NCBI GenBank assembly: GCA_028292225.1
Contig: JAQGMV010000497.1
Coordinates: 1-40,912, forward strand
Direction: 5' to 3'
Length of the DNA: 40,912 bases
From: Betaproteobacteria bacterium
Lineage (GTDB): Bacteria; Pseudomonadota; Gammaproteobacteria; Burkholderiales; SG8-41
Shown here: piece by piece, positions 2,230 through 19,313 of the stretch
Position numbering within the stretch: the stretch's first letter is position 1
How the letters are laid out: the number at the start of each line of letters is the position of its first letter
The notes under the pieces: model-generated
What the model saw: only the letters and a program-made list of their open reading frames with translations
Told to the model about the DNA's origin: nothing
Databases searched by the model: none
Translations under genes and position numbers: made by a program

Positions 2230-2937
2230 CTAGCTCGCGGCGTTCACGCGCGGGATAGTGACGCCGACGAGCGTATCCCGGGTCAGCATATCCGCGAGCT
2301 GCTCATCGCTCCAGCCTTCGGTGCCTTCGGGACGCATCGGGATGACGACGTAACGCATGTCGGCGTTGGAGTCGTGCACGCGAACCGTGACGCTTTCGGG
2401 AAGGACGGTCCCGAATTCCTTGAGCACCGCCCGGGGCTCGAACACCACGCGCGAGCGATAGTTGCGGCTCTTGTACCAGGTCGGGGGCATGCCGAGCAGC
2501 GCTCGCGGGTAGCACGAGCACAGGGTACACACGATCACGTTGTGCACGTCTGGCGTGTTCTCGACCGCGATGAGGCGGTCGACCTCGAGATCGATGCCCA
2601 TCTCGGCGCACGCCGCCTTGCCGTCGTCGAGCAGGCGCTGCCTGAACGCCGGATCGGTCCAGGCTCGCGCGACCAGCTTCGAGCCGCGATACGGAAAATC
2701 CTCTTCGAAGACTTCCATGCGGCGCCTCACCTGCTCCGCGGTGATCACCCCTTTCTCCTCGAGCAGTTCCTGCATCGCACGGCTCATGATCTCGAACTCG
2801 CTCGGCGGGCCGTCGTCGTGCTCGTTGATCGGCGCATGGTCGTCATGATCGTGGTCGTGATCGCCGTGGTCGTGGGTGCGGCCTGCGCGCTCTTTCAGCT
2901 TCTTGTCGGCGTAGTAGTCGTATTTGTATTCGCTCAT
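2230..2937 (-). CDS. Nitrile hydratase alpha subunit, cobalt type
   Basis: The 235-residue protein carries the metal-binding claw C137-T-L-C140-S-C142 inside 'VIVCTLCSCYPRALLG'. In this family Thr after the first Cys marks Co(III) enzymes and Ser marks Fe(III) enzymes. The preceding 'ENTPDVHN' and following 'PPTWYK' are typical of nitrile hydratase rather than of thiocyanate hydrolase gamma. The enzyme hydrates nitriles to amides in the cytoplasm as an alpha/beta complex. Residues 22-40 form an unusual His/Asp-rich stretch with seven histidines. The gene is third in a minus-strand operon after the two beta-half genes. No activator or cobalt transporter gene lies next to it in this window. Confidence 0.93.
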   Translation of the reverse strand: MSEYKYDYYADKKLKERAGRTHDHGDHDHDHDDHAPINEHDDGPPSEFEIMSRAMQELLEEKGVITAEQVRRRMEVFEEDFPYRGSKLVARAWTDPAFRQRLLDDGKAACAEMGIDLEVDRLIAVENTPDVHNVIVCTLCSCYPRALLGMPPTWYKSRNYRSRVVFEPRAVLKEFGTVLPESVTVRVHDSNADMRYVVIPMRPEGTEGWSDEQLADMLTRDTLVGVTIPRVNAAS

Positions 2938-2967
2938 TTCGCTTGTCTCGTCAGCCTGGAATGTAAA

Positions 2968-2984
2968 CCGGGGTCAGACCCCCG
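2968..2984. repeat. Short GGGGTCAGACCCC palindrome, variant of family A
   Basis: The palindrome GGGGTCAGACCCC at 2970-2982 resembles the core of family A but has a different centre and lacks the AAATC shoulders. The TGA stop codon of the nitrile hydratase beta C-half gene (2974-2976) lies within it. It occupies most of the 36-base gap before the alpha gene. Confidence 0.6.
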
Positions 2985-3315
2985 CCCTTTCCAGCCAGTG
3001 CTCGAAGATTTCCATTTCGATGATGTCGCGGTCCGGGCCGCGATACTCCGGCCACACTTCCTTCTGCGTGAAGCGCACTCGATACAGGACCTTTTTCGGC
3101 TCGCCGTCGAAGCCGTAGGCGAGCTCTTCCGGATTCGGGAAAACGCCGCAGACTCTTTCGATCACGCCTGCCTTGCCGCGGATGTAGCACGGCGTGCGGC
3201 GGTGCCCCGGCGGAAATGCGCGCTTGACCACGACCGCGTCGCCGACATTGAAACGCCGGCCCGGCGCGGGCGTATAGGTCGAAGGCAATGGCGCGCTGGT
3301 CTGCGCCGCGTTCAT
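2974..3315 (-). CDS. Nitrile hydratase beta subunit, C-terminal half (separate gene)
   Basis: The 113-residue protein matches the SH3-like C-terminal domain of nitrile hydratase beta: 'RRFNVGDAVVVK', then 'PPGHRRTPCYIRGKAGVI', then 'VLYRVRFTQKEVWPEY' and a final 'EIFEHWLERAGV'. The Arg in 'YIRGK' corresponds to the second conserved beta arginine that contacts the modified cysteines. The start is the ATG at 3313-3315, which overlaps the TGA of the N-half gene in an ATGA arrangement, so translation is probably coupled. A split beta is also known in thiocyanate hydrolase (scnB, scnA, scnC order) and in toyocamycin nitrile hydratase. The motifs here look closer to nitrile hydratase. Confidence 0.85.
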   Translation of the reverse strand: MNAAQTSAPLPSTYTPAPGRRFNVGDAVVVKRAFPPGHRRTPCYIRGKAGVIERVCGVFPNPEELAYGFDGEPKKVLYRVRFTQKEVWPEYRGPDRDIIEMEIFEHWLERAGV

Positions 3316-3671
3316 CGGCTGGCGCCTTTTTTCAGCGGCGACTCCATCTCGTCCGGCACGTTGAAGCGTGCGCGGATCTGCTCCATCTTCGCCTTCAGCT
3401 CGTGCTCGGTGATCAGCCCTTTCTCGATCAGGACCGTGCGCAGCGCCGAAGTCGTGATCTCGAAATACGCGAGCTCCGAATAGCGCGAGCCGAGGTCCTC
3501 CGCCGCGCGGCGCAGCTCGTCGGTGCGCATGATCTTGTTCCGCTGCAGCGTCGAGCGCAGCCCGTTCGCCTGCCGCTCCCAGAACTTCATGCCGTGATCG
3601 AGGGTGTCTACAGGGCCCGCTTCCGCGCCGCCGATGTCCTGCGGACCCTGGTTGGGATGTGTGCCGCTCAT
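3312..3671 (-). CDS. Nitrile hydratase beta subunit, N-terminal half (separate gene)
   Basis: The 119-residue protein aligns with the helical N-terminal domain of nitrile hydratase beta. It has 'PQDIGG' near the start (family IHDVGG), 'FWERQANGL' (family DWERLAFGL), 'ELRRAAEDL' at the position of the first conserved active-site Arg, and 'VLIEKGLITEHEL'. It ends before the SH3-like domain, which is encoded by the next gene. AAGGAG precedes the ATG at 3669-3671. It is probably the first well-supported gene of the nitrile hydratase operon. The beta-homologous activator P14K also resembles this region, but the intact IGG motif favours a structural subunit. Confidence 0.82.
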   Translation of the reverse strand: MSGTHPNQGPQDIGGAEAGPVDTLDHGMKFWERQANGLRSTLQRNKIMRTDELRRAAEDLGSRYSELAYFEITTSALRTVLIEKGLITEHELKAKMEQIRARFNVPDEMESPLKKGASR

Positions 3672-3889
3672 GCTGCGTACTCCTTTTCGAATGCCGCATG
3701 GCTGTGCGGCTTGAGCTCCCCGGCGAAGTTGCCAGCGATCGATGCCGAAGTCAAACTCGGCCAGTCATTCACGGGAGCATGGACCCAGCGGCCCGCGAAC
3801 TCACGCACCCCCTTCCGCAGCACGTCTTTCCTGCCGGTCCCGGCCGCTGCACAGCCGGCGTAACGGCCACACATCCCACTGCGGTGCAA
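3668..3889 (-). CDS. Possible small protein upstream of nitrile hydratase (unrecognised)
   Basis: A 73-codon reading frame ends in an ATGA overlap with the beta N-half gene, the same coupling seen between the two beta halves. Its last codons contain the AAGGAG that serves the next gene. The C-terminal part reads 'NFAGELKPHSHAAFEKEYAA'. I recognise no family. Third-position GC looks lower than in neighbouring genes, the start is uncertain (several ATG/GTG choices), and it could be untranslated leader. It is listed only because of the overlap geometry. Confidence 0.25.
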   Translation of the reverse strand: MHRSGMCGRYAGCAAAGTGRKDVLRKGVREFAGRWVHAPVNDWPSLTSASIAGNFAGELKPHSHAAFEKEYAA

Positions 3890-4108: not shown

Positions 4109-4109
4109 A
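4053..4109 (+). other. Possible 18-codon leader peptide before the ThDP gene
   Basis: A GTG at 4053 with AAAGGA eight bases upstream opens a frame of 18 codons (VKILVDSTRDLARAGGRA). It stops at TGA 4107-4109, overlapping the ATG of the ThDP gene (TGATG). The ThDP gene has no obvious ribosome binding site of its own, so reinitiation after this leader is plausible. There is no homology evidence. Confidence 0.3.
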
Positions 4110-5938
4110 TGGCCGCGAGCAAACCGCCCTCGCCCTCGACCCGGCTCGACGGCCAGACCGTCGCCCAACTGTTGCTGCGCTACCTCGCGCTCGAAGGCGT
4201 CGATACGCTCTTCGGCATTCCCGGCGCCGCAGTCATGCACCTGCTCGCCGAGCTCAAGAACCAGCGCAGCACGTTCCGCTACGTCATCGCACGCCAGGAG
4301 ACCGGCGCGGCCTATATCGCCGACGGTTACGCCCGCGTGTCAGGCAGGCTCGGCGTCGTATTGGTCACGTCCGGTCCCGGCGCGACCAACGCGCTGACCG
4401 GCACCATGAACGCGCAAAACTCCGGCGTGCCGCTGCTCACGATCACAGGCGAGGTCGCCGAGCAGTACTTCGGCATGGGCTACCTCCAGGAAGGCACCGA
4501 CGCCAACCTGAACATCGACGCGGTGTACGGCAACGCTTCCGGGTATTCGGTCATCGTTACCAACGCGAGTAATTTCCAGACCCTGTTCACCCAGGCGCTC
4601 AGGGACGCCCTCGGCCTGCCGCACCGCGCCGCTCACATCAGCCTGCCCGACGACGTCGCCGCCACGCCGGTTCCCTCGGTCCGCTTTCCGAATGCGCCCC
4701 ACAACTACCGCACGCGTCCGCACGGCGCGGACCCGCACCAGGCGCAGCTCGCTTTCCAGCGGCTCGCCGGGGTCGCACGCCCGCTGATTTTCCTCGGCAG
4801 CGGAGTCCGGGAAGTGCTGTACGGGGAAAGGCTCGCCGCCTTCACCCGCATGGTCGAGCACTTCGCGATCCCCGTCATGACTACGCCTGACGCCAAAGCG
4901 GTCTTCCCCGAGTCGCACCCGATGTCGCTGCGCTGCTTCGGGATGGCGTACTGCGAATGGGCCAAGGACTACCTGCTGCCGAGCCGCGTCGACCCGGCGC
5001 TTCCCGACGGCTACGACGCGCTCCTCGTGCTCGGCACCGGGCTCGGCGGTTTCTCCACCAACAAATGGGATCCGGCGCTCCAGCCGCGGCAGTCGCTCGT
5101 GCAGGTCGACCTCGACCAGACGGTCATCGGGCGCGTGTTTCCGCTCGACTTCGGCGTGGTCGCCGAGCTCGGCGCATTCATCGACGAGCTGTGCCGCGCC
5201 GCGCACGCGGTCCCCCCCGACGCGGTCGCGGTCGAGACACGGCGTGAGTTCATCGCGCGAATCAGGCAGCGCTCCCCCTATCTCGACCCGCAGAACCGCA
5301 ATTCGACGAGCTCGCCTATCCTGCCGCAGGCGGTGATGAAGTGCATCAGCGATACGCTGCCTGCGGGCTCGAACATCTTCGTCGATTCCGGCAACTGCGT
5401 CGGCTTCGCGCTCCACTACCTCGCGGTCGATCCGCCGACTCGCGTGTTCAGCGCGCTGACGATGGGCCCGATGGGTTTTGCCGTCGGCGCGGTCATCGGC
5501 GCCAAGCTCGCCGCGCCCGACGCGGTGTGCCTCGCGATCGCCGGTGACGGCGCGTTCCTCATGCACGGGAACGAGGTCTCGACCGCCGAAGCAAACAATG
5601 CGGGCGCGATCTGGGTCGTCCTGGACAACAACGATCTCGCGATGGTCAGCCAGGGCATGAACCGGTTCTTTCCCGACAAGAGCGGCGTCTGGAACGACTA
5701 CTACGCGCTCGGCAAACCGGACATCGCGCAGTTCGCCCGGTCGCTCGGCGCCGATGCCTATGAGGTTTTGAGTGTCGCAGACATGCAGCACGCGCTCGGC
5801 GCGGCGATCAACGCATCCCGGATCAACGGCAAACCGCAGGTGATCGCGGTGCACATCGACCCGAAGCAGATCCCGCCCTATTACCAGGACATCAAACCGC
5901 CTTTGCAGGGAGCTCCCGATGGCCAGCCCGACCTCTGA
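4109..5938 (+). CDS. Thiamine-diphosphate-dependent enzyme, acetolactate-synthase-like
   Basis: The 609-residue protein has the three-domain ThDP layout. The N-terminal Pyr domain contains 'FGIPGAAVMHLL' and 'RQETGAAYIADGYAR', with Glu64 as the cofactor-activating glutamate. A middle domain spans about 200-370. The C-terminal PP domain has 'IAGDGAFLMHGNEVSTAEANNAGAIWVVLDNND' split by the GDG motif (479-481) and NN (507-508) that bind Mg-ThDP. Family members decarboxylate 2-oxo acids or ligate the resulting carbanion to a second carbonyl. Substrate is unknown. It is the first gene of a three-gene operon with an FAD amine-oxidase-like and a FabH-like gene, and overlaps the next gene by 20 bases. 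That context argues against a housekeeping ilvB. Confidence 0.9.
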   Translation: MAASKPPSPSTRLDGQTVAQLLLRYLALEGVDTLFGIPGAAVMHLLAELKNQRSTFRYVIARQETGAAYIADGYARVSGRLGVVLVTSGPGATNALTGTMNAQNSGVPLLTITGEVAEQYFGMGYLQEGTDANLNIDAVYGNASGYSVIVTNASNFQTLFTQALRDALGLPHRAAHISLPDDVAATPVPSVRFPNAPHNYRTRPHGADPHQAQLAFQRLAGVARPLIFLGSGVREVLYGERLAAFTRMVEHFAIPVMTTPDAKAVFPESHPMSLRCFGMAYCEWAKDYLLPSRVDPALPDGYDALLVLGTGLGGFSTNKWDPALQPRQSLVQVDLDQTVIGRVFPLDFGVVAELGAFIDELCRAAHAVPPDAVAVETRREFIARIRQRSPYLDPQNRNSTSSPILPQAVMKCISDTLPAGSNIFVDSGNCVGFALHYLAVDPPTRVFSALTMGPMGFAVGAVIGAKLAAPDAVCLAIAGDGAFLMHGNEVSTAEANNAGAIWVVLDNNDLAMVSQGMNRFFPDKSGVWNDYYALGKPDIAQFARSLGADAYEVLSVADMQHALGAAINASRINGKPQVIAVHIDPKQIPPYYQDIKPPLQGAPDGQPDL

Positions 5939-7577
5939 CGACATCCTCGACGTTGCAATCGTCGGCGCCGGCGTTTCCGGCGTGTACAGCGGGTGGCGCA
6001 TCCTGCGTGACGGCCGCGGCCACACCTTCGAAGGCGCCGCGCCGAAAATCACCGTTTTCGAAGGGAGCGACCGCATCGGCGGCCGCCTGCTGAGCCTCAC
6101 CCCGCCGGGAATGCCGAACACCCGCTGCGAGCTGGGCGGCATGCGCTACATGTCGCGCCACGTGCTGGTGAGCTGGCTCGTGCAGAGCTTTGGTTTTGCG
6201 ACCGAGCCGATGCCGGTCGGAGACCCGGCGAACATCCTCTTCCTGCGCGGCCACCAGGTGCGGCTGTCGGACCTCAACACCCCGTCCCTGCTGCCGTACA
6301 ACTTCACGCCGATCGAGGAGCGCGTGGTCGAGGACCCCGATAACGCCCTCCTCCTCTACGCGCTCCAGCAGATCGTGCCCAATTCGCTCGCGATCACCTA
6401 CGACCAACTGCTCGAGGAGATGCAGACCGCGACCTTCGACGGCACGCCTTTGCACGAGCAGGGTTTCTGGAACGTGATCGCTCGCGTGCTGAGCCCCGAT
6501 GCGTACTGGTTCGTGCGCGACACGAGCGGCTACGATTGCCTGGTCTCCAACTGGAGCGCGGCCGACGCGATTCCTTTCATCCTCGCCGACTTCGGCCAGG
6601 GCGTGACCTACAGCCGCTTTCCCGACGGATACGACCAGCTTCCGCAGCGTCTCGCGCAGGAATTCAAAGCCGACGGCGGAACGATCAAACTCAACACTCG
6701 GCTCAAATCGTTCGACAGTTCGAAGCTGCCGGACGGCACCGACGGCGTCGTGATGAAGCTCTCCGACGGTGCGACGGTCTACGCGCGCAATCTGGTGCTC
6801 GCCATGCCGAGGCGCTCGCTCGAGCTCATCGAGCCGACCGGCGCCGTTCTCGACCCGCGTCACACCGACGTGCGCGACCTCATCGAATCGGTCATGCCGA
6901 TTCCGCTCTTCAAGATTTTCCTGTGCTACGACTACCCGTGGTGGAAAGCGATCGGCGTGAAGACCGGGCGCTCGCTCACCGACATGCCGATCAGGCAGTG
7001 CTATTACTGGGGTGTCGAGCCCAGGTCGCCGATCATGGACGGCAACTCGTGCCTGCTCGCGTCCTACGACGACGATCTCAGCGTCACCTTCTGGGCGGGC
7101 CTGCGAGCGAAGACCGCAACAACCCCGCTGTATGAAGCGCGGAAAACCTGCACCGGCGAGCTCGCGCCTTCCGAGGGCTGGGCCGATCACCGCGCGCCCA
7201 GGGCGATGGTCGAGGAAGCGCACCGCCAGATCCAGCAGATGCACGGCGTCACCTACGCCCCCAAGCCTTACGATGCCGCGTACCGCGACTGGACCGAAGA
7301 TCCGTACGGCGGCGGCGTCAATTTCTGGCAGATCCACGCGAAGAGCTGGGAAGTGATCCCTTTGATCATCAATCCGCGCAAAGGGATACCGGTCTACATC
7401 TGCGGCGAAGCGTATTCTCACGAGCAGGGCTGGGTCGAAGGCGCGCTGCAGACCGCCGAGATCATGCTACAGACCTACTTCAAGCTGGCCCCGCCGCCCC
7501 CGATCCAGTCCCCTGCGCCCCCAAAGGCGTCCGGCCGCCGCACCCCGACTGTGACCGTGGTGGCGAAAAACGCATGA
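5919..7577 (+). CDS. FAD-dependent amine oxidase-like oxidoreductase
   Basis: The 552-residue protein has an N-terminal Rossmann motif 'VAIVGAGVSG' (G16, G18, G21) followed by 'FEGSDRIGGRL' at about 47-57. These are the FAD-binding signature of the flavin amine oxidoreductase family (monoamine and L-amino-acid oxidases). Near the C-terminus 'PVYICGEAYSHEQGWVEGAL' matches the conserved flavin-contacting segment. AGGGAG precedes the ATG, which lies inside the end of the ThDP gene. Its stop overlaps the next start as ATGA. Such enzymes oxidise an amine or amino acid to an imine/2-oxo acid, a plausible substrate supply for the ThDP partner; that link is inference. The tail after about residue 525 is Pro/Ala-rich and probably disordered. 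Confidence 0.88.
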   Translation: MASPTSDDILDVAIVGAGVSGVYSGWRILRDGRGHTFEGAAPKITVFEGSDRIGGRLLSLTPPGMPNTRCELGGMRYMSRHVLVSWLVQSFGFATEPMPVGDPANILFLRGHQVRLSDLNTPSLLPYNFTPIEERVVEDPDNALLLYALQQIVPNSLAITYDQLLEEMQTATFDGTPLHEQGFWNVIARVLSPDAYWFVRDTSGYDCLVSNWSAADAIPFILADFGQGVTYSRFPDGYDQLPQRLAQEFKADGGTIKLNTRLKSFDSSKLPDGTDGVVMKLSDGATVYARNLVLAMPRRSLELIEPTGAVLDPRHTDVRDLIESVMPIPLFKIFLCYDYPWWKAIGVKTGRSLTDMPIRQCYYWGVEPRSPIMDGNSCLLASYDDDLSVTFWAGLRAKTATTPLYEARKTCTGELAPSEGWADHRAPRAMVEEAHRQIQQMHGVTYAPKPYDAAYRDWTEDPYGGGVNFWQIHAKSWEVIPLIINPRKGIPVYICGEAYSHEQGWVEGALQTAEIMLQTYFKLAPPPPIQSPAPPKASGRRTPTVTVVAKNA

Positions 7578-8650
7578 GCGGTGACGGCGCGGCGCAGCGC
7601 GTCGGGATCGTCGGCCGCGGCTACGCGATGCCGCCGACGATACGGACCAACGACGATCCCATATTCGACTGGCTGAAAAAGAACGACCCGGGCTACGAGC
7701 AACTCTTCTACGGCTACGGCACGCGTCGCGTCCTGAAGCCTGACGAATCCATCGTCACCTGCATGCAGAGCGCGGCGCAAAGCGCGCTCGACATGGCGAA
7801 GCTGGACGCGGGAGACGTCGATCTGCTGCTGGGCTTCGTCTCGGTCAGCGATTACGAGATGCCGAACGGTCTGTCGCAACTGCACCAGTTGATGGGACTG
7901 TCCCCGCGCTGCTGGATCATTCCGCTGAACGTCGAGTATTCGAACTTCAACGCCGGCCTCGTGATCGCCGATGCGATGATTCGCGCGGGCCAGGTGCGCA
8001 ACGCGCTCGTCGTGTGCGGCGGCAACTGGTCGCGTTATGTGAACTACCATCTGGGGCCTTCGGTGAGCGCCGCCGACGGCGCAGGCGCGGCGGTGGTCGC
8101 CCGAACCGATGACAGCTCGACCTTCCGGGTCGTCGACTTCGAGACGATCACCGAGACGATGGTGCCCGCGAGCGGCGGGACGCCTGCCTATCCCGCCTAC
8201 GGCAATATGTACATCGGCACCGACGCGATCCCGGTCCCGCCGCCGGTGCCGTTTCCGGACCGGGATACCGGCGACGCGCTTCCCGATCAGCAGGTCTACA
8301 CGCAGCGCTACTTCCACATCACGGCCCGGGGCATGGCCGAATTCGGCGGTTTCGGCGTCACCGCGCCGATCGAGGTGGTACAGCGACTCCTGACCCGCAA
8401 CGCGCTCCCGCCGAGCGCAGTCACGATCACCGCGCATCAGACGAGCCGCAAGCTCCTCGACGCGTGGAACACTTCGATTCAGCCGAAGCTTTTCTTCGAC
8501 ACCCTTTCCACCTTCGCGAACATGACGCTCGCGAGCATCCCGGTGAACTTCGCCTTCGGGTACGAGCAGTTCAGGACCGATCATCTCGTGCTGCTGGGCA
8601 TCGGACCCGAATTGCACACGAATGCGGTGTTATTGAGAAGGCTTGGCTAG
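7574..8650 (+). CDS. FabH-fold (KAS III-like) protein lacking the catalytic cysteine
   Basis: The 358-residue protein follows beta-ketoacyl-ACP synthase III throughout. It has 'LLLGFVSVSDYEMP' near the first nucleophile half, 'SAADGAGAAVVA' at 165-176, the active-site His288 in 'ITAHQTSRKL' and Asn316 in 'FANMTLASIP'. At the position of the nucleophilic Cys (family 'AACSGF'), the sequence is 'VEYSNF' and the aligned residue is Tyr122 (codon TAT at 7937-7939). It therefore cannot form the usual acyl-cysteine. It may be a partner subunit like PqsB, or catalyse acyl transfer or another reaction without a thioester on Cys. It is the last gene of the operon, joined to the oxidase gene by ATGA. Confidence 0.87.
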   Translation: MSGDGAAQRVGIVGRGYAMPPTIRTNDDPIFDWLKKNDPGYEQLFYGYGTRRVLKPDESIVTCMQSAAQSALDMAKLDAGDVDLLLGFVSVSDYEMPNGLSQLHQLMGLSPRCWIIPLNVEYSNFNAGLVIADAMIRAGQVRNALVVCGGNWSRYVNYHLGPSVSAADGAGAAVVARTDDSSTFRVVDFETITETMVPASGGTPAYPAYGNMYIGTDAIPVPPPVPFPDRDTGDALPDQQVYTQRYFHITARGMAEFGGFGVTAPIEVVQRLLTRNALPPSAVTITAHQTSRKLLDAWNTSIQPKLFFDTLSTFANMTLASIPVNFAFGYEQFRTDHLVLLGIGPELHTNAVLLRRLG

Positions 8651-8682
8651 GCGCTTCAATGCCGCTTTCTCCAGGGCGAGAC

Positions 8683-8707
8683 TTACCCGACGTGGTAAAT
8701 TTTTTTT
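8683..8707 (+). terminator. Weak candidate terminator after the FabH-like gene
   Basis: A short stem TTACC (8683-8687) pairs with GGTAA (8694-8698) around a six-base loop and is followed by eight T residues. The stem is only five pairs, so termination would be weak. The T-run also lies just upstream of the sigma-54-like element and could be part of that promoter region instead. Confidence 0.35.
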
Positions 8708-8709
8708 GC

Positions 8710-8725
8710 TGGCACGGCAATTGCA
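8710..8725 (+). promoter_or_regulatory. Sigma-54 (RpoN) type -24/-12 promoter
   Basis: TGGCACG at 8710-8716, four bases, then TTGCA at 8721-8725 match the sigma-54 consensus TGGCACG-N4-TTGCW at every fixed position, with the correct GG-to-GC spacing. Transcription would start near 8736, which leaves a very short leader before the ATG at 8747 and excludes the in-frame GTG at 8732. No enhancer-binding site was identified. Confidence 0.65.
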
Positions 8726-8746
8726 GAATCGGTGGTATTGTGCCCT

Positions 8747-9910
8747 ATGCTTCATGATTTCCTCACCGAGAACCGCAGCGACTTGATCGACCGATGCAGG
8801 TCGAAAGTCGCTCTCAGGACTACGCCCAGAGCGAGCCACATCGAGCTGGAACACGGTATACCGCTATTTCTCGACCAGCTCATCAAAACACTCCGGATCG
8901 AGCAGACCCTCGAGCCCCTGCGTAGCCGCAGAATTTCGGGTCCGTCGGGCGGCGGCAGGCCGGTGTCATCGGAGATCGGCGACACCGCCACACAGCACGG
9001 GCGGGAGCTCCTGCAGCAGGGTTTCACGATCGACCAGGTCGTTCACGATTACGGCGATCTGTGCCAGGCGATCACCGATCTGGCATTTGAGCGCGGGACG
9101 CCGATCGCGATCGACGAGTTTCGAACGCTCAACCGTTGCCTCGACAACGGAATTGCAGACGCCGTCACCGAATTTTCCTACCAGCGTGAATCGCTGCTCG
9201 GGGATAGAGCAGTCCAGGCATTGAACGAGCGCCTGGGGTTTCTCGCGCACGAGCTGCGCAACCACCTGAACACCGCCACTCTCGCACTGACCGCCATCAA
9301 ATCGGGCAACGTCGGGCACGGCGGGGCGACGGGCGCTGTGCTCGACCGCAGCCTCGTCGCACTGCGCAACCTGGTCGATCGATCGCTCGCCGACGTGCGC
9401 GTGGTCGCCGGCATGCCCGCGCGGCACGAGCTCCTCTCGGTTGCAGACTTCATTGCGGACATTCAGATCTCCGCAACGCTGGAGGCAAAGACCAGAGAAT
9501 GCGGATTCAACGTCGCTGCCGTCGACCCGAAGCTCGCGGTCGACGCCGACCGGGACCTGCTCTTCTCGGCAGTGGGAAACCTGCTCCAGAACGCGTTCAA
9601 GTTCACGCACTATCACACCGATGTCGCGTTGAACGCCTACGCTGCTGCGGATCGCATCCTGATCGAGGTCGAAGACAATTGCGGCGGCCTTCCACCCGGC
9701 GACGCCGAACACATGTTCGAGGCGTTCGCGCAGGTCGGCAACGATAAATCGGGGCTCGGACTCGGACTCTCGATCTGCCGGAGGAGCGTCGAAGCGAACG
9801 AAGGGGTGCTCAGCGTCCGCAACGTCCCCGGCTCGGGTTGCATCTTCACGATCGACCTGCCGCGGCACGCGCTTCCGGACCCTTCCCCGGCGCCGGACAC
9901 GACAGCCTAG
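8747..9910 (+). CDS. Sensor histidine kinase, cytoplasmic, N-terminal RsbRD-like domain
   Basis: The 387-residue protein begins MLHDFLTENRSDLIDRCRSK, a typical opening of cytoplasmic kinases with an RsbRD/RsbU-like helical sensor domain (about 1-145). The kinase core has the H-box 'FLAHELRNHLN' with His168, the N-box 'NLLQNAFKF' (278-286), the G1 box 'EDNCGGLP' (309-316) and the G2 box 'GLGLGLSICRR' (337-346). There is no transmembrane segment and no fused receiver. No response regulator gene is adjacent, so it is an orphan kinase. I chose the ATG at 8747 over the GTG at 8732 because it fits the family start and the predicted sigma-54 transcript. Its stop shares the bases CTAG with the convergent cyclase gene. 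Confidence 0.9.
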   Translation: MLHDFLTENRSDLIDRCRSKVALRTTPRASHIELEHGIPLFLDQLIKTLRIEQTLEPLRSRRISGPSGGGRPVSSEIGDTATQHGRELLQQGFTIDQVVHDYGDLCQAITDLAFERGTPIAIDEFRTLNRCLDNGIADAVTEFSYQRESLLGDRAVQALNERLGFLAHELRNHLNTATLALTAIKSGNVGHGGATGAVLDRSLVALRNLVDRSLADVRVVAGMPARHELLSVADFIADIQISATLEAKTRECGFNVAAVDPKLAVDADRDLLFSAVGNLLQNAFKFTHYHTDVALNAYAAADRILIEVEDNCGGLPPGDAEHMFEAFAQVGNDKSGLGLGLSICRRSVEANEGVLSVRNVPGSGCIFTIDLPRHALPDPSPAPDTTA

Positions 9911-12900
9911 GCCTCGAACCTCCTGTCGAGATCCGCGACCCTCGCCTTTGCCCCCCAGCGCGTATAAGCCTCACGCGCCTGCGCGTAAGCCTCATTCCAC
10001 CCGTTATCCCCCGCTTCACCTAGCGCACCCGCGCGAAGCTCGTGCGCCAGCGCTTCATGTTGCACGTATCCCGCCGCGGCGGCTGACTTCGCCGCCGCGC
10101 CGTAGGGGAGCATCGCTTGCGCCGTCAGCCCCTCCGTAACCCCAAGCTCCGCTTCGACCAGCAAAGCCTTGTGCTCGAAGTTCGCCGCGCACAGCGTTGC
10201 CCATCCGCGTAGCTGCTGCAGCCGTTCCCGTGCGCTGTCCACGAGCGCTTTGCGCGCGTCGTCCTGCACCTCCCGCGCGCGGGCGAGCAGCGCAAGACCA
10301 TGGAAGAATGACAGCTCGAACTCCCCCGTCTGGCCGGCGAAAGCGGGCAGCAGCGCCTGCGCCTTGCCGGCGAATTCGAGCGCGGCGGCGTAGTCGCGGG
10401 AGTAGTAATGCAGCCGCAACTTCGAGATGAAGTAGAAGCCGATCTGGTTGTAGTGATCGCTCGCGCAGATCGAAGCGATGTCGCGGGTTTCGTCGTGCTC
10501 GGCATCGGACAGGCTGAGCGGGTCTTCGGTCAGTCCCGCGAGGGCTTTCGCGAACTGCAGCTCGTGCACGCAGTGAAAAGCGGCATTGATCACGCGCCTG
10601 CCGTTCTTCGAGAGATGGGTTCGGGCGACTTCGATCACTTCGGCCAACGGCCGTCCTGCGGTCGCGAGCTGCACGACGTGGGCGGACAGGTTGAAGCAGC
10701 CGTAGAGGACGTCGCCCAATTCGAACGCGCGGTCGGCCGCCTCCAGGCTCATGTCGAACGCGCGCGCCAGCGGATACAGCCAGTGCTGATTGAACCAGGT
10801 GTAGATGAACGACGCGGGGCCGAGCAGGGTCTTGCCGTTGCGCGCGTCGAGCGCGAGGGCGAGCTCGGCGAATTCGCACGCCGTGCGGGTGTCCCCGGTG
10901 ACCGCGCGATAGACGATCGAATGCATCGCGTAAACCACCGGCGCGGCGGGACCGTTGCCGTGCTCGAGCGTGAGGGTCATGCAGCGCAGCGCCATCAACG
11001 CGAAAAGCTCGGCTTGCAGGCTCTGGTGCGCGAACGGCATGGTCCGCAGCAGAACGCCGATCACGGCGCCGACGGTCTCGTCAGCAAGCGGCGCGTGCTC
11101 GAGCAACTCACGCGGCGCGCGCCCTTTGAGCTGCGCCTGGATGCGCCCGAGCTCCGCCCCGATCAGCGGAACGATATTGGCGGACGCTTTCGGAAGCACC
11201 ACGCCGAGCAGGCTCAAAGCTTCGAGCCCCTGCTCCACCGACGCTTTGCCCAGGCCCATGCTGAACGTGCGCGTCGAGCTCTTCTCGAGGTAACCGACCG
11301 CTTTGGGCACGATGCCCGCGCGCGCCCAGTGGTGCGCGAGCACCGCATACATCTCCGGCCGCTCGTCGCCGTGGGCACGCTCGTGCCACTTCGCGACGCC
11401 GTGGTGGAGTTGCCTGCGCTGCGAGAAGAGCATCAGGTTGTAAGCGACTTCGCGCGTGATCACGTGCTTGAACGAGTAGGCGCGCTCGGGCCCGGGCGAG
11501 TCGAGCACGGTGAGATCGGCCCGCAGCAGCGACTCGAGCGCGGCGTCGAGGGTCGCCAAATCGGCCGGCACCGGATGCACGTCGCGCAGCACGCTTACCG
11601 GGAACGCAGCGCCGATGACGCTCGCCACCTTGATTGCGAGCTGCGCCTGCGGCCCGAGCCGGTCGATGCGTGCGGTCACCGCGCCCTGGACCGTCTCCGG
11701 ATACTCGAGGGCCGAGGCGTCCACGCCTCGGGCGACCACGCAAATGCCGTCGACGACTTCGACGACGTCCGCGTCACGCAGCGCGAAGCCGAGCTCCTCG
11801 GCGAAGAAGGGGTGCCCGCTCGCGCGCGAGCGGATCGCCTCGTCGACTTCGGGCGCCAGCGATGCCGCCCCGAGGCGGCTGCAGACGAGCGCCACCGTTT
11901 CTTCCGCGGAGAGCGGAGCGAGCCGCAGGGTCGTGCACGCGGGGCTGTCCTGCAGCGCTTGGAGCTCGACCGGGGCGGGGTCGGGTACCGGCCGCGTCGT
12001 GATGACGAGTTCGAGCGCCGCAACGCGCCGGCTCACCTCCAGCGCGAGCGACCACGACGACGCATCGAACCAGTGCGCGTCTTCGAGCACCACACACGTC
12101 GGACGGGCGAGCGCCGCTTTTTCGAGCGCCGCGACCAGAAGCTCGCACGTCGCATTCGCGCGCATCGCACCGCTCAACTCGGCGGTTTGCGCAGTCTCGG
12201 CGAAGCCGAGCGCCAGCACCGCTTCGAGCAGAGGCGCGTGCGCGACGAACTCAGGCCCGAGCGCAATGGCGGCCTGCAGGCGCCTCGCTTCCCCCTGCCG
12301 CATATCCGAAATGCCCAGCAGCGACGCGAACACACGGCGCCACGCGAAGAACGGCGTGCCGGCTTCGATCGCATCGGCAGCACCGTGGATGACGCCGACG
12401 CCTGCCCCAGCGGCAAGCCGCTCCAGCTCTTCGACGAGGCACGATTTGCCCATGCCCGCGTCGGCGACCAGGAGCAGCGTGCCGGGCGGCTCGCGGCGGG
12501 CGCAGCGCTCGATCGCGCGCGCGATGGCGGCTCTCTCGTGCGCACGCCCCACGATCGAGCGCTCCTTGCGCAACGGCGCGTCGCGCAATCGCACCGGGCG
12601 CGCAACGGCGACCGGCGCCGCCTTGCCTTTGAGCGACATCGCGGGCAGATCGGCGAACTCTACACGCGCGAGAGCGTTGTCGCGCGTCGCGGCGTCGCAC
12701 AGGATGCGGTGTCCGACCTGCATCTGCGCCGCCGCTTCCATCAGCCGCGCCGCCACGTTCATGACGTCGCCCACCACCGCGTATTCGCGCCGCACGTCGG
12801 AACCCACGACGCCGCAGAAACAGCGGCCGGTCGTGAGCCCGATCGCGGCCCCGTCGAGCGCGTCGACGAGCTCGAGCGCCGCGCGCACGCCGCGTGCGGT

Positions 12901-13899
12901 GTCGTCTTCGTGCGAGCCCGGCGGCAGTCCGAAGACGATGACGAGCACGACCCCCTTGTCGTCGATCACGAGCTCTTTTAGGAACGCGTCGTAGCGGCGG
13001 ACGATCGGACAGGTGCGTTCGAGCACCGATTGCAGCCGGCTCGCGGCGTCCGGCGCGGTGTGATCGAAATCGGGAACCTGTGCAAAAAGCGAAGTCACCT
13101 GGCGCAGCTCGCCGAGCCAGTCGCGGTGGCCGGCGGCAAGGCGGGCGCGCACCGGCCCCGGCACGAAACCTTCGAGCTTCGCGAGTGCATCCGAGGTCCA
13201 GTCCAGCTCAGCTCGCGGGGCGGGCGGCGCAGGCTCGACATCGAAAAGGCGCCAGCAGCCCTCGCCCGCGCTCACCGCTTCGGCCCGGCTCTCGAGCACC
13301 GACCACGCGCCTGCGGTGAGCACGACGTGTCCGGGCTGCGCGCACGCCTGCGCCTGCGCGAGGTCGTTCACCGGAACGCCGCCGACCACGAAGTGCCACG
13401 AGTCGCCGCTGTGCAGCTGCGCCGCGTTCACCCGGCCATGCGCCACCGCGATGCGCAGGCTCAGCGTGTCGCCGGCGCCCGCATCGTAGCCGTGCAGCTC
13501 GCGCTGGATCGCGAGCGCGCAGCCGGCTGCGCGCTGGAGGGCGAGCCGTCCGCCGCTTTCGTCCGCCGGCCACAGCGCGATCAGGGCATCGCCTGCAAAC
13601 TTGAGCGGCTCTCCGCCGTGGAACGCGACGATGGCGAGCAGCCTGCCGAAGTAATCGTTGAGCAGCCGCGAGAGCGCTTCGGTCCCCGCAGCGCCCCGCC
13701 CTGCGAGCTTCGATGACAACGGGGTAAAGCCCGAGATGTCGGCGAAAAGCACGGCGGCTTCCAGCGTCGCGGGGCACGATGCCCTGAAAGGCGCCTCGGT
13801 GTCGCGCGCCCACCTCTGCACGTGCGCCGGCGCATAGCTCGCCCGCTCGGCCGCGATCCCGTCGCGCAAGACCGTCACTTCAGGTGGAAACGAAGACAT
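9907..13899 (-). CDS. Soluble adenylyl cyclase-like protein: two cyclase domains, NTPase, helical repeats
   Basis: The 1330-residue protein has the layout of ADCY10-type cyclases. Cyclase domain 1 (about 45-205) holds both metal aspartates, Asp54 in 'LFADISGFTPL' and Asp104 in 'FAGDALIALW'. Cyclase domain 2 (about 265-430) has 'VIVFGLPPG' and 'CGVVGSDVRREYAVVGDVMNVAARL' but lacks the first metal Asp ('SLFAQVPDF'). Known members form one active site at the interface of the two domains. An NTPase module follows with Walker A 'ADAGMGKS' (479-486) and a Walker B-like 'CVVLEDAHWFD' near 608. A long helical TPR-like region makes up the rest. No membrane segment is present. It probably makes cAMP; activity and trigger are unproven. 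Confidence 0.88.
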   Translation of the reverse strand: MSSFPPEVTVLRDGIAAERASYAPAHVQRWARDTEAPFRASCPATLEAAVLFADISGFTPLSSKLAGRGAAGTEALSRLLNDYFGRLLAIVAFHGGEPLKFAGDALIALWPADESGGRLALQRAAGCALAIQRELHGYDAGAGDTLSLRIAVAHGRVNAAQLHSGDSWHFVVGGVPVNDLAQAQACAQPGHVVLTAGAWSVLESRAEAVSAGEGCWRLFDVEPAPPAPRAELDWTSDALAKLEGFVPGPVRARLAAGHRDWLGELRQVTSLFAQVPDFDHTAPDAASRLQSVLERTCPIVRRYDAFLKELVIDDKGVVLVIVFGLPPGSHEDDTARGVRAALELVDALDGAAIGLTTGRCFCGVVGSDVRREYAVVGDVMNVAARLMEAAAQMQVGHRILCDAATRDNALARVEFADLPAMSLKGKAAPVAVARPVRLRDAPLRKERSIVGRAHERAAIARAIERCARREPPGTLLLVADAGMGKSCLVEELERLAAGAGVGVIHGAADAIEAGTPFFAWRRVFASLLGISDMRQGEARRLQAAIALGPEFVAHAPLLEAVLALGFAETAQTAELSGAMRANATCELLVAALEKAALARPTCVVLEDAHWFDASSWSLALEVSRRVAALELVITTRPVPDPAPVELQALQDSPACTTLRLAPLSAEETVALVCSRLGAASLAPEVDEAIRSRASGHPFFAEELGFALRDADVVEVVDGICVVARGVDASALEYPETVQGAVTARIDRLGPQAQLAIKVASVIGAAFPVSVLRDVHPVPADLATLDAALESLLRADLTVLDSPGPERAYSFKHVITREVAYNLMLFSQRRQLHHGVAKWHERAHGDERPEMYAVLAHHWARAGIVPKAVGYLEKSSTRTFSMGLGKASVEQGLEALSLLGVVLPKASANIVPLIGAELGRIQAQLKGRAPRELLEHAPLADETVGAVIGVLLRTMPFAHQSLQAELFALMALRCMTLTLEHGNGPAAPVVYAMHSIVYRAVTGDTRTACEFAELALALDARNGKTLLGPASFIYTWFNQHWLYPLARAFDMSLEAADRAFELGDVLYGCFNLSAHVVQLATAGRPLAEVIEVARTHLSKNGRRVINAAFHCVHELQFAKALAGLTEDPLSLSDAEHDETRDIASICASDHYNQIGFYFISKLRLHYYSRDYAAALEFAGKAQALLPAFAGQTGEFELSFFHGLALLARAREVQDDARKALVDSARERLQQLRGWATLCAANFEHKALLVEAELGVTEGLTAQAMLPYGAAAKSAAAAGYVQHEALAHELRAGALGEAGDNGWNEAYAQAREAYTRWGAKARVADLDRRFEA

Positions 13900-15888: not shown

Positions 15889-16917
15889 ATGGCACGCACC
15901 CGCTCGCCTGCGCTTCCCCGCTTTTCCAGCGTTGCATCCCTGCCCGGTCGCGCCCGTCTGGTCGCCCTTGCGGGTGCCCTGACGGCGCTCGTTCCCGCGG
16001 CCCACACGGCCTCCGCCATACCCGGATTGCCCAACAAACCGGTCGTCATCATCGTGCCGAATGCCGCGGGCGGGCCTTCCGACCTCCTCGGCAGGCTGAT
16101 CGCGCCCAAGCTCGGCGAAGCGGTCAGACAGAACGTCATCGTCGACAACCGCCCGAGCAACAACGGCGTGCTCGCCGGAGAGCTCGCGTCGCGAGGCGCA
16201 GCCGACGGGTCACTGCTCACCGTCGGCAATACCGGCACCCACGCGATCAACGCCACGCTGTACAAGCGTCTGTCGTACGACCCGGTGAAAGACTTCGTTC
16301 CGATCACCGGCGTCATGTCCGGCGGGCTCGTCGCGGTCGCCAATCCGACGCTTCCCGCCAACTCGATCAGGGAGCTCGTGGCCTACGCGAAGAAAGCACC
16401 GGGCAAGGTCGTCATCGCGATCGCCGGCGCGACAGGAGAGATCGCCACCAACGCGCTCAAGCAGCAGGCCGGAATCGACATGACGAACGTCAACTACAAA
16501 GGCGGCGCGCCGGCGGTTGCCGCGATACTCTCCAACGAGTCGCATCTCACGCTGACCAACTACTCGAGCGTTTCGGGCCATGTGACGGCGGGCAAGCTGA
16601 AGCTGATCGGCGTCACCAGCGCCAAGCGCGACGCGCTGCTGCCGAACGTGCCGACTTTCGCGGAGAGCGGGCTCGAAGGCTATGAAGTCGAAATGTGGTA
16701 CGGATTTTTCGCGCCGGTCAAAACACCGCCGGCCATCGTGCAGTCGTATTACCGGGAGATCACGCGCATCGCCGGGTCACCGGACGTTCGCGATAAGCTC
16801 GTCGCTGGAGGATACGATGTCATCCTGAGCACGCCCGAGCAGTTCGGAGCGAGGGTCAAAGGGGATTATGAGAAATTCCGGAAGATCATTCTCGATAACC
16901 ACATGCAGATCGACTAA
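15889..16917 (+). CDS. Bug/TctC-family tripartite tricarboxylate-type substrate-binding protein
   Basis: The 342-residue protein starts at the ATG preceded by AAGGAGGATGAA, an excellent ribosome binding site. A signal peptide of about 45 residues ends near 'AAHTASA'. The mature part shows the Bug fold: 'KPVVIIVPNAAGGPSDLLGRLIAPKLGE', '[28 protein letters not shown]', '[13 protein letters not shown]' and 'LPNVPTFAESGLEGYEV'. Family members bind carboxylates in the periplasm. No TctA/TctB membrane partners lie nearby, which is common for these orphan receptors in Burkholderiales. It may serve the neighbouring molybdoenzyme locus, but this is only proximity. Confidence 0.92.
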   Translation: MARTRSPALPRFSSVASLPGRARLVALAGALTALVPAAHTASAIPGLPNKPVVIIVPNAAGGPSDLLGRLIAPKLGEAVRQNVIVDNRPSNNGVLAGELASRGAADGSLLTVGNTGTHAINATLYKRLSYDPVKDFVPITGVMSGGLVAVANPTLPANSIRELVAYAKKAPGKVVIAIAGATGEIATNALKQQAGIDMTNVNYKGGAPAVAAILSNESHLTLTNYSSVSGHVTAGKLKLIGVTSAKRDALLPNVPTFAESGLEGYEVEMWYGFFAPVKTPPAIVQSYYREITRIAGSPDVRDKLVAGGYDVILSTPEQFGARVKGDYEKFRKIILDNHMQID

Positions 16918-16921
16918 CGGC

Positions 16922-17006
16922 CAATGACGAAGGCGGAATGATGAATGATGAATTAAAACTGCCGGCCGCCCGACATTCCGCATTCATCATTCATCGTTCC
17001 TCATTG
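16922..17006. repeat. Imperfect inverted repeat (ATGATGAAT-rich)
   Basis: The 33-base arm at 16922-16954 pairs with 16974-17006 at 26 of 33 positions around a 19-base centre. The arms are built from ATGATGAATGATGAAT-like sequence. The element fills the gap between the Bug-type gene and the molybdoenzyme gene and would form a long hairpin in a read-through transcript. Confidence 0.75.
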
Positions 17007-17013
17007 AAATAAC

Positions 17014-19311
17014 ATGCTGACTTCAACACACTGGGGCGTGTACGACGTGCACGTCGAGAACGGCGAGATCGCGCGGGTCACGCCGTTCGAGCACGATCCG
17101 GATCCCTCGCCCATCGGCCAGTCGCTGCTCGGCACCGTCACCGGTCCGGCGCGTGTGCGCAGGCCCGCGGTGCGCAAGAGCTGGCTCGAGCGCGGCGCGG
17201 GCGCGTCCACTGAAAAACGCGGCTGCGAGCCTTTCGTCGAAGTGAGCTGGGACGAGGCGCTCGAGCTCGTCTCGAAAGAGTTGAAGCGCGTCACCACCCG
17301 GTTCGGCAACAGCTCGATCTTCGCGGGCTCGTACGGCTGGTCGAGCGCGGGGCGGTTCCACCACGCGCAAAGCCAGGTGCACCGCTTCATGAATTCGATC
17401 GGCGGCTATGTCGCGCACGTCGGCACTTACAGCCTCGGCGCGGCCCGTACCCTGCTCCCGCGCATCCTCACGGACATGGATGCGATGCGCGCGCAGCACA
17501 CCCCGTGGGTCGAGCTCGAGAAGCACTGCCAGTTCATGGTCGCGTTCGGCGGGATACCGTCGAAGAACGCACAGGTGAACGGCGGCGGCGCGAGCCGGCA
17601 CGAGACCCGGCCTGCGCTCAAACGCCTCGCGGCTGCGGGCGTCAGATTCGTGAACATCTCTCCGCTGCGCCACGATCTCGGCGACGCGCCGGGCGCGGAG
17701 TGGATTCCGATCCGTCCGAATACCGACGCCGCTTTCATGCTCGCGATCGCGCACACGCTCATTGCCGAAGGCCTGCATGACCGCGCTTTCCTCGCTCGCT
17801 ACTGCGTCGGCTTCGACGAGCTCAGTCGTTACGTGATGGGCGAGCACGACGGCGTCGCAAAAAGCGCCGAATGGGCGTCGACGATCTGCGAGGTCGCGGC
17901 AGCGACGATACTGACGCTCGCGCGTCGCATGGCCGCGAACCGCACGGTCGTCAACGTCGCGTGGGCCCTCCAGCGCGGCGACCACGGCGAGCAGCCGTAC
18001 TGGCTCGGCATCACGCTCGCGTGCCTGCTCGGGCAGGTCGGGACAAAAGGCGGCGGTTTCGCGCTCGCGTACGGGCCGGTGAACGCCGAAGGCGCGAACG
18101 GCAGCACGTTCTCGGGCCCGGTCCTGCCGCAGGGACAGAACGCGGTGAAGACGCCGATCCCTGTCGCGCGCATTGCGGACATGCTCGAAAACCCGGGCGC
18201 CGAATACGACTTCAACGGGAAGCGCTGCACCTATCCCGACATCAGGTTGATCTACTGGGCCGGCGGCAATCCGTTTCACCACCATCAGGACCTCAACCGC
18301 TTCATCGGCGCATGGCGCAAGCCCGAGACGATCGTGGTGAACGAGCAGTACTGGAACGCCAACGCGAAAATGGCCGACATCGTGTTGCCCGCCACCACGA
18401 TGCTCGAGCGCGACGACATCGGTTCGGCTTCGCGCGACCGCTACATGATCGCGATGAAGCGCGCCATTCCGCCAGTGGGAGAGTCGCGCGACGACTACGA
18501 AATCTTCACCGCGCTCAGCGAGCGGCTCGGCACGAAGGAAACGTTCACCGAAGGCCGCTCGAGCGCGGCGTGGCTGCGCCACCTCTACGATGTTTCGCGC
18601 GAGCGCGCGCAGAAATTCGACATCCGCCTCCCGCCGTTCGAAGCGTTCTGGTCGGAAGGCCTGGTCGAGCTGCCGCTGCCGGACGAGCCCGCGGTGATGA
18701 TGAAGGCGTATCGCGACGATCCCGATGCAAACAGGCTGCCGACCCCTTCGGGCAAGATCGAAATCTTCTCGTCGACGATTCATTCTTTCGGCTACGACGA
18801 CTGCCGCGGTCATCCCGCATGGTACGAGCCTCGAGAGTGGCTCGGCTCCCCGCTCGCGAAGCGCTATCCGCTGCACCTCATCTCGCACCAGCCTTCGACG
18901 CGGCTGCACAGCCAGTACGACCACGGCAGCGTGAGCCTCGCGTCCAAAATCCAGGGACGCGAAGCGCTGACGATGCACCCGGTGGATGCGGCCGCGCGCG
19001 CCATCGAAGCCGGCGAAGTCGTTCGCGTCTATAACGATCGCGGGGCGTGCCTCGCCGGCGTCATCGTCGACGACGCGGTGCGTCCCGGCGTGGTCGTGCT
19101 GCCGACCGGCGCGTGGTACGACCCTCTCGTGCCCGGCGAGATCGGCACGCTGGACAAGCACGGCAACCCGAACGTGCTGACGCTCGATAAAGGCACCTCG
19201 AAGCTCACGCAGGGGTGCAGCGCGCATACGTGCCTCGTGGAAGTCGAGAAGTTCGAAGGCGCGCTGCCGCCCGTCACGGCTTTCGACTTGCCACAGTTCG
19301 TGAAGCGGTGA
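17014..19311 (+). CDS. Molybdopterin-dependent oxidoreductase, biotin sulfoxide/DMSO reductase family
   Basis: The 765-residue protein belongs to the BisC/TorA/DorA group. It begins 'STHWGVYDVHVENGEI' without an N-terminal Cys cluster, so no [4Fe-4S] site is expected. 'FAGSYGWSSAGRFHHAQSQVHRF' contains the Mo-coordinating Ser (Ser111, aligned with Ser147 of Rhodobacter DMSO reductase). Later segments 'GAEWIPIRPNTDAAFMLAI', 'YWAGGNPFHHHQD' and the C-terminal MoCo-binding domain with 'LHLISHQPSTRLHSQYD' fit the family. There is no Tat signal, so it should be cytoplasmic like BisC. It presumably reduces a sulfoxide or N-oxide. The next Bug-type gene starts two bases after its stop. Confidence 0.92.
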   Translation: MLTSTHWGVYDVHVENGEIARVTPFEHDPDPSPIGQSLLGTVTGPARVRRPAVRKSWLERGAGASTEKRGCEPFVEVSWDEALELVSKELKRVTTRFGNSSIFAGSYGWSSAGRFHHAQSQVHRFMNSIGGYVAHVGTYSLGAARTLLPRILTDMDAMRAQHTPWVELEKHCQFMVAFGGIPSKNAQVNGGGASRHETRPALKRLAAAGVRFVNISPLRHDLGDAPGAEWIPIRPNTDAAFMLAIAHTLIAEGLHDRAFLARYCVGFDELSRYVMGEHDGVAKSAEWASTICEVAAATILTLARRMAANRTVVNVAWALQRGDHGEQPYWLGITLACLLGQVGTKGGGFALAYGPVNAEGANGSTFSGPVLPQGQNAVKTPIPVARIADMLENPGAEYDFNGKRCTYPDIRLIYWAGGNPFHHHQDLNRFIGAWRKPETIVVNEQYWNANAKMADIVLPATTMLERDDIGSASRDRYMIAMKRAIPPVGESRDDYEIFTALSERLGTKETFTEGRSSAAWLRHLYDVSRERAQKFDIRLPPFEAFWSEGLVELPLPDEPAVMMKAYRDDPDANRLPTPSGKIEIFSSTIHSFGYDDCRGHPAWYEPREWLGSPLAKRYPLHLISHQPSTRLHSQYDHGSVSLASKIQGREALTMHPVDAAARAIEAGEVVRVYNDRGACLAGVIVDDAVRPGVVVLPTGAWYDPLVPGEIGTLDKHGNPNVLTLDKGTSKLTQGCSAHTCLVEVEKFEGALPPVTAFDLPQFVKR

Positions 19312-19313
19312 CG

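Follow-up and report, generated by a model that had tools for sequence, protein, structure and literature searches.

A 40,912-nucleotide stretch of a betaproteobacterial genome (contig JAQGMV010000497.1 of assembly GCA_028292225.1; Burkholderiales, SG8-41 in GTDB), which we call the window, carries three overlapping genes for a thiamine diphosphate (ThDP)-dependent enzyme, an L-amino acid oxidase (LAAO) and a FabH-like protein, and beyond them on the other strand a large fourth gene. Our preferred reading, held tentatively and with somewhat less than even confidence, is that these make up a horizontally moving four-gene cassette that produces an amino-acid-derived small molecule and brings along its own sensor or regulator. 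Gene order, tight linkage and co-inheritance are observed directly, as are the loss of the catalytic cysteine from the FabH-like protein, with its histidine and asparagine kept, and the differing outputs that the fourth protein carries on a related C-terminus. The three overlapping genes are as follows.

4109-5938, forward strand: ThDP-dependent enzyme, 609 aa (Pfam TPP_enzyme N/M/C; nearest solved relative BbmA; 19-copy family alignment)
5919-7577, forward strand: FAD L-amino acid oxidase, 552 aa (Pfam Amino_oxidase; match to ancestral LAAO 8jhe; 20-copy alignment)
7574-8650, forward strand: protein of predicted KASIII (ketoacyl-ACP synthase III)/FabH fold without the catalytic Cys, 358 aa (28-copy residue alignment)

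The ThDP and LAAO open reading frames (ORFs) overlap by 20 nt (5919-5938), and those of LAAO and the FabH-like protein by the 4 nt ATGA (7574-7577). The Pfam E-values were 8e-39, 1e-21 and 2e-28 for the N, M and C domains of the ThDP enzyme, 4e-32 for Amino_oxidase in the LAAO and 2e-12 for ACP_syn_III in the FabH-like protein. An earlier interpretation made from the letters of the window (the sequence-only reading) had described three overlapping same-strand genes of just these families, and the ORFs, both overlaps and the families are all confirmed. Its three-gene composition has to be amended, as it overlooked the conserved fourth gene at 9907-13899 on the reverse strand.

Distribution and gene order

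The main scan, run with an alignment of four FabH sequences over one genome from each of 84,980 species, returned 46 pattern matches, of which 25 encode FabH-like relatives; exact peptide patterns were used, so the true number of loci is likely higher. Once the window, L006 and one plasmid locus each from Rhizobium jaguaris (L004) and Flammeovirga kamogawensis (L005) are added to these 25 (one of which, L007, is identical to L006 and counted once), there are 28 distinct loci. The order ThDP enzyme, LAAO, FabH-like protein on one strand was found in 20 of them (the window, L004, L006, L008-L023 and L031), with intergenic gaps of -20 to +162 nt between the first two genes and -32 to +22 nt between the last two. 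This is the co-occurrence check across genome collections that the sequence-only reading had proposed, and together with the correlated family distances described below it upholds the idea of a conserved, co-inherited unit. Chance adjacency of the three genes is rejected by the 20 ordered loci and the four-way distance correlation. The expectation that relatives would keep the trio together rather than scattered holds for these 20 and not for the other eight (L024-L029, L005 and L030), where it is incomplete or differently ordered.

According to the record titles, the trio loci include Rhizobiaceae, Rhodobacteraceae, Nevskia, Granulicella, Terriglobia, Flavisolibacter and Cnuella besides betaproteobacteria, which we take to represent alpha-, beta- and gammaproteobacteria (Nevskia), Acidobacteriota (Granulicella, Terriglobia) and Bacteroidota (Flavisolibacter, Cnuella). 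Close to the window genome the cassette is rare, being present in 2 of 100 relatives, the window's own genome included. That assembly consists of 544 contigs at 93.56% completeness and 4.65% contamination, so misbinning of the window is possible in principle; a genome of the same genus (L006) holds the same cassette, its three trio proteins being 87-89% identical to those of the window. Among 72,556 plasmid records a search started from the ThDP enzyme found only two at E<=1e-60, those of L004 (trio) and L005 (trio-related), and in the family of L010 it found 2 of 394 genomes at E<=1e-90, L010's own and G411, whose fourth-gene score is identical to that of L013. When started from the LAAO, it gave 13 plasmid records at E<=1e-40, of which only two were the L004 and L005 records, indicating that the LAAO is widespread and no marker by itself. 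The LAAO of Photobacterium sp. GJ3, 43% identical, has a weak partial ThDP match (22%) nearby and no FabH match near it. No relative was found in the viral contigs searched.

Outside the four families every gene family was confined to three loci at most, except for groups of reverse-frame ORFs that lie within these same genes; ORFs were picked simply by length in this test, and gene calls are rough on GC-rich loci. On the same basis no carrier, export, resistance or tailoring gene recurs beside the trio loci. The statement that no carrier, resistance or export gene flanks the trio is thus correct for recurrent neighbours and too strong for the window, where the opposite strand carries, at 197-1981, a gene of transporter type (Pfam CitMHS, Na_sulph_symp).

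The eight remaining loci are of different kinds. In Flammeovirga (L005) LAAO and FabH are adjacent in this order, and the ThDP gene lies ca. 7 kb away on the opposite strand, where it forms a pair (16216-19592, reverse strand) with the gene of another, distinct FAD oxidase. L030, from a Solirubrobacterales bin, has LAAO followed by FabH and no ThDP match at E<=1e-6 within its 11 kb; its FabH-like frame (8001-8937) stops early at 241 aa while the similarity continues, so that this is either a decayed gene or an assembly error. The other six (L024-L029: Microvirga, two Dictyobacter, Mumia, Nocardioides and Bailinhaonella) are ThDP plus FabH loci and form a second FabH-like clade, in which the ThDP enzyme is more distantly related. 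The ThDP gene directly precedes FabH in five of these loci, and in L027 there is a weak match (28%) on the other strand. Individual neighbours in this clade are an isopropylmalate-synthase-like gene directly before ThDP (L028), an alpha/beta-hydrolase gene after FabH (L025), and a more distant Amino_oxidase-family gene ca. 2.3 kb upstream of FabH on the opposite strand (L029).

Co-inheritance and probable transfer

Pairwise distances correlate among all four families (r = 0.918-0.985 over 18 loci; in none of the six comparisons did any of 2000 permutations reach the observed value), these values being raised by the close relationship of several of the loci. The comparison used loci with all four proteins, which excluded L006, whose contig stops within the fourth gene. 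The FabH-like protein of the betaproteobacterial locus L016 shares 63% identity with its Granulicella counterpart and 46% with that of the window, which points to transfer between phyla.

The FabH-like protein

Among PDB sequences this protein had only weak KASIII matches (best 2e-15, residues 12-180), and the fabH model scored it at 74.4 bits against a cut-off of 292.1. Its predicted structure (pLDDT 88, pTM 0.88, with 23 family sequences) matches FabH and PqsD chains with E-values down to 8e-26, and on this model we assign it the KASIII (thiolase-like) fold. Active-site positions were read against the window genome's own FabH (Cys114, His247, Asn277).

7937-7939, forward strand: codon of Tyr122, at the position of the FabH nucleophile Cys (aligned to Cys114)
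8435-8437, forward strand: codon of His288, the retained catalytic His
8519-8521, forward strand: codon of Asn316, the retained catalytic Asn

None of the 28 copies has Cys at the nucleophile position, where 22 have Phe and 6 have Tyr, while the catalytic His is kept in 25 of 26 and the Asn in 26 of 26. The lower total arises because the frames read for L030 and L031 lack the His and Asn sites (the L031 contig ends inside FabH). Protein starts were set at the nearest start codon upstream of the match, with shorter starts adopted later for L004, L023 and L031. Judged by this alignment, the family lacks the Cys-His-Asn triad of condensing KASIII enzymes. In FabH acylation takes place on the Cys, and His and Asn act in the decarboxylation (PMC4807248, extract). 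With the Cys lost, the protein would not be expected to carry out an ordinary Claisen condensation by way of an acyl-enzyme; the retained His/Asn pair suggests instead that the protein may decarboxylate a beta-keto acid, which would be apt here, as coupling of two 2-oxo acids by a ThDP enzyme yields a beta-keto acid.

The oxidase and the ThDP enzyme

The nearest relative of the LAAO among PDB sequences is the ancestral L-amino acid oxidase 8jhe (E 7e-124). Five residues of HTAncLAAO2, R67, L320, K322, Y383 and W520, correspond to R76, L330, K332, Y383 and W505 in the window, all invariant in the 20 aligned copies, and two more are replaced (W482 by V467, W220 by F220); the residues are those named in PMC10517122, and their mapping assumes that the numbering of the chain and that of the paper differ by 2. 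By its general similarity and the conservation of its site residues this would thus be an L-amino acid oxidase of the HTAncLAAO2 type, and a hydrophobic or aromatic L-amino acid is its likely substrate. The violacein enzyme VioA was considered and discarded (77.3 bits, NCBIfam cut-off 600).

For the ThDP enzyme the closest PDB sequence, and so the nearest solved relative, is BbmA (8x3x; E 1e-89, or 1e-124 with a family profile), for which neither function nor gene context was found in the open-access literature searched. The imidazolium alkaloids bacillimidazole and discolin, to which the name BbmA seemed to point, were considered as a lead and dropped. The protein has features of acetolactate-synthase-like ThDP enzymes: three TPP domains, and E64 and G479-D480-G481 invariant in 19 aligned copies, which we take to be the catalytic Glu and the GDG cofactor motif. 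Two assignments were rejected by NCBIfam cut-offs, biosynthetic acetolactate synthase (249 bits against 538.35) and the scytonemin enzyme ScyA (200.5 against 1020, and 208.4 against 1000 for the ScyA-related model). NzsH, CqsB3 and ScyA are ThDP enzymes that couple aryl 2-oxo acids (PMC9822442; PMC7466098; extracts), and ScyA, which joins two of them (PMC9822442, extract), is comparable in reaction type, although the window enzyme falls far below its curated cut-offs. A man-made cascade of an LAAO and NzsH has been described (PMC9822442, extract); in the window, enzymes of these two kinds are paired naturally.

The fourth gene

9907-13899, reverse strand: fourth gene, 1330 aa, with two class III cyclase domains, an AAA_16 ATPase and a helical-repeat C-terminus (Pfam; ADCY10 match)
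9910-11322, reverse strand: its C-terminal all-helical domain, residues 860-1330, a putative sensor or docking part (profile and predicted structure)

A relative of this protein is encoded beside FabH in all 19 trio loci that have sequence beyond that gene (L031 ends inside it), convergent with FabH in 16 and on the same strand in three (L008, L009 and L016). What varies is its front part. Among six neighbouring proteins scanned with Pfam, those of the window and L004 have cyclase and AAA_16 domains, L016 adds a SAM domain to these, the two from Acidobacteriota (L008, L009) have a protein kinase and AAA_16, and the 1724-aa ATPase next to the Flammeovirga genes (L005) has kinase, AAA_16, GAF and SpoIIE; a DNA-binding domain was found in none of the six. 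The cyclase pair of the window matches human ADCY10 with both domains in order (E 5e-32). In the 15 copies with a cyclase pair both metal Asp residues are always kept, and the C2 Asn in nine. The window protein itself has the C1-C2 pair of ADCY10-like class III adenylyl cyclases, with the metal Asp and C2 Asn-Arg residues whose roles in such pairs we assume.

The ATPase-repeat core of the window protein was searched in 14 genomes or records, 11 of which hold the trio and an orthologous fourth gene. In all 11 the best match by a wide margin was the linked protein, which scored 325-564 bits along almost the full core; no other hit among the 14 exceeded 118 bits, and the Flammeovirga plasmid and the Microvirga genome had no match at all to this core. 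A reverse search with the kinase-type core of L008 gave the linked copy as the top match in all 8 genomes.

The part best conserved across different outputs is the C-terminus. Relative to the window, residues 860-1330 are 46, 39, 41, 39 and 32% identical in L016, L008, L015, L018 and L010, against 19, 22, 35, 37 and 28% for the ATPase region and 30, 24, 39, 39 and 30% for the middle region, so that this domain stands out where the output differs (46 versus 30% for the middle region in L016, 39 versus 24% in L008). A C-terminus profile gave 608-689 bits for complete linked copies, most of which belong to the profile itself (L004 and L013 lie outside it, with close relatives inside), and at most 199 bits for unlinked paralogues among the fetched loci. 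The domain is predicted to be all-helical (pLDDT 95.5, pTM 0.92), and its structural matches are weak ones to repeat proteins (best E 8e-4), with Rap pheromone receptors at E 0.007. If it served as a receptor for the trio product or as a docking surface, this would explain why this domain stays with the trio.

Related cyclase-ATPases of 1350-1390 aa (one cut by a contig end) occur in six genomes of the window's family (L065-L070), with 37-42% identity over the matched core and matches that stop near residue 897; a large ORF of at least 735 aa (cut in one) directly precedes the gene in five of the six stretches.

Proposed function and alternatives

The mechanism that we envisage has four steps. 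The LAAO would oxidise a hydrophobic or aromatic L-amino acid to a 2-oxo acid, H2O2 and NH3, and the ThDP enzyme would couple two 2-oxo acids to a beta-keto acid; both steps are suggested by the enzyme families. More speculatively, the His/Asn pair of the KASIII-fold protein could serve to remove CO2 from this beta-keto acid, or else to steer a transfer or rearrangement of it, and the helical-repeat C-terminus of the fourth protein could bind the product, or dock on the pathway, and switch an exchangeable output, adenylyl-cyclase-type in the window and protein kinase in the two Acidobacteriota. The order oxidation, ThDP enzyme, FabH-fold protein had been put forward by the sequence-only reading and fits family knowledge and the carbazole precedent (see below), but the ordinary condensation that one would expect of its last member does not suit a protein without the catalytic Cys.

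Several observations weigh against the reading of a four-gene cassette with its own sensor. The six loci of the second FabH clade (L024-L029) have no LAAO relative at E<=1e-10 in their whole genomes and no fourth gene beside the ThDP/FabH pair, so this pair can do without both. No trio gene was found in the stretches read around the related cyclase-ATPases of L065-L070. One trio locus (L016) has Tyr at the catalytic His position of the FabH-like protein, and in six cyclase-pair copies, all from Rhodobacteraceae, the C2 Asn is Ile, so the cyclase there may be inactive. Among cyclase-pair copies the C-terminus is barely more conserved than the middle region (41 versus 39, 39 versus 39 and 32 versus 30%). 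The Flammeovirga ATPase scores 43 bits with the C-terminus profile and is not an orthologue. Finally, the putative ligand role of the C-terminus is deduced from its fold type, and the structural matches are weak.

The strongest competitor, which has in our view a real but minority chance of being right, is an ordinary specialised-metabolite cluster (for an antimicrobial, pigment or volatile) in which the fourth protein is an ordinary regulator of the pathway, responding to ATP or the state of the cell and not to the product, in the manner of NOD-TPR regulators of antibiotics such as AfsR. The linkage and co-inheritance data would be the same in both cases, and AfsR, which joins DNA-binding, NOD and TPR domains (PMC10936776, extract), is likewise an ATPase plus TPR regulator tied to small-molecule genes. 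However, the fourth proteins differ in showing no DNA-binding domain in the six scanned and in having a cyclase or a kinase as output, and no tailoring, export or resistance gene recurs.

A bolder version of our preferred reading, which we consider rather unlikely, makes the cassette a new type of bacterial signalling unit: the trio would produce an amino-acid-derived signal of hydroxyketone type, and the ATPase-repeat protein would be its dedicated receptor, with a conserved C-terminal ligand domain that acquired different outputs (a pair of adenylyl cyclase domains, SAM plus cyclase, protein kinase) as the cassette spread between phyla. The Cys-less KASIII proteins would then be enzymes of a class of their own, acting on beta-keto acids by decarboxylation or transfer and forming no acyl-enzyme.

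It is improbable that the genes form a catabolic or housekeeping route degrading an amino acid, with the fourth gene tuning it to the carbon supply. LAAO and ThDP enzymes are known as families to act in catabolism too, and nitrile hydratase genes and a citrate-type transporter gene lie near the window trio, but a cassette so rare and patchy (the 2 of 100 relatives above), with neighbours that vary by locus and a Cys-less KASIII protein without evident catabolic role, does not look like one.

We give very little credence to a carbazole-type alkaloid pathway like those of carquinostatin or neocarazostatin (CqsB7/B3/B1/B2; NzsH/J/I), even if the succession of reaction types, deamination, ThDP carboligation and a KASIII-like step, is that of CqsB7, CqsB3 and CqsB1, the last of which condenses an alpha-hydroxy-beta-keto acid after the CqsB3 step (PMC7466098, extract). 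That pathway uses an aminotransferase where the window has an oxidase, its KASIII-like protein is not matched by the Cys-less one here, and the partner with ATPase and cyclase or kinase is found only here; furthermore only four families recur, and judged by this recurrence (no CqsB2 sequence was compared) no conserved carrier or CqsB2-type cyclase is seen. An anti-phage defence island around the nucleotide cyclase is equally far-fetched: the cassette is mobile, and PADLOC PycC models recognise the cyclase domain (46 bits at best, E 9e-13), but this match is partial, the three trio enzymes have no PADLOC match at E<=0.001, no effector-like gene recurs and it is the metabolic trio that is conserved, so that we rejected membership of Pycsar defence.

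Returning to the four-gene cassette, its parts can be compared with other known systems. The fourth protein resembles ADCY10 in its two cyclase domains matched in order and in the cyclase-ATPase-repeat layout, which we presume for ADCY10 as well, but it is bacterial, linked to a biosynthetic trio and exchanges its front module in relatives. The xenocyloin pathway has a ThDP enzyme and is not known to include an LAAO. Its likeness to the trio is a ketosynthase-fold enzyme with acylating activity (PMC4578411, extract). The alkylquinolone enzyme PqsBC also has FabH-like proteins with altered triads in a signal pathway, PqsB being without all three residues (PMC4807248, extract); PqsC keeps Cys and His and works in a heterodimer, whereas here the Cys is lost, His and Asn are kept and there is one FabH-like gene per locus. 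The logic of the route is already known, and the unusual parts are the Cys-less KASIII clade and the modular ATPase partner.

At its most modest, this is a widely spread biosynthetic cassette with no named pathway in the open-access literature searched (subscription papers lie mostly outside that search), which agrees with the earlier remark that no described pathway has exactly this trio; the four-gene association suggests an undescribed metabolite or chemical-signal system. If our preferred reading is true, the cassette would be a compact synthase plus sensor, available also in named isolates of Rhizobium, Granulicella, Flavisolibacter, Cnuella and Yoonia, and would represent a new route from an amino acid to a small molecule. 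It would also offer a natural test of what the KASIII fold does without its nucleophile, and a modular protein family, including a bacterial relative of human soluble adenylyl cyclase, that links a metabolite to cAMP or kinase signalling.

Neighbouring genes in the window

Between FabH and the fourth gene lies a HATPase (histidine-kinase-type) gene (8732-9910, forward strand), whose protein had no HisKA domain match. It was rejected as a fifth member, being absent from this position in L006 and non-recurrent. Upstream of the trio are nitrile hydratase genes (2230-3699, reverse strand), the alpha subunit scoring 265.6 bits against a cut-off of 249.85. The beta subunit is apparently split into two overlapping ORFs in different frames, an N-part at 3312-3671 and a C-part within 2974-3699; the beta part of thiocyanate hydrolase is split in a similar way. 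Elsewhere in the window genome (contig 398, L064) a 1507-aa paralogue of the fourth gene's C-terminus and another nitrile hydratase alpha-like gene (55% identical) lie less than 12 kb apart, repeating the pairing seen in the window.

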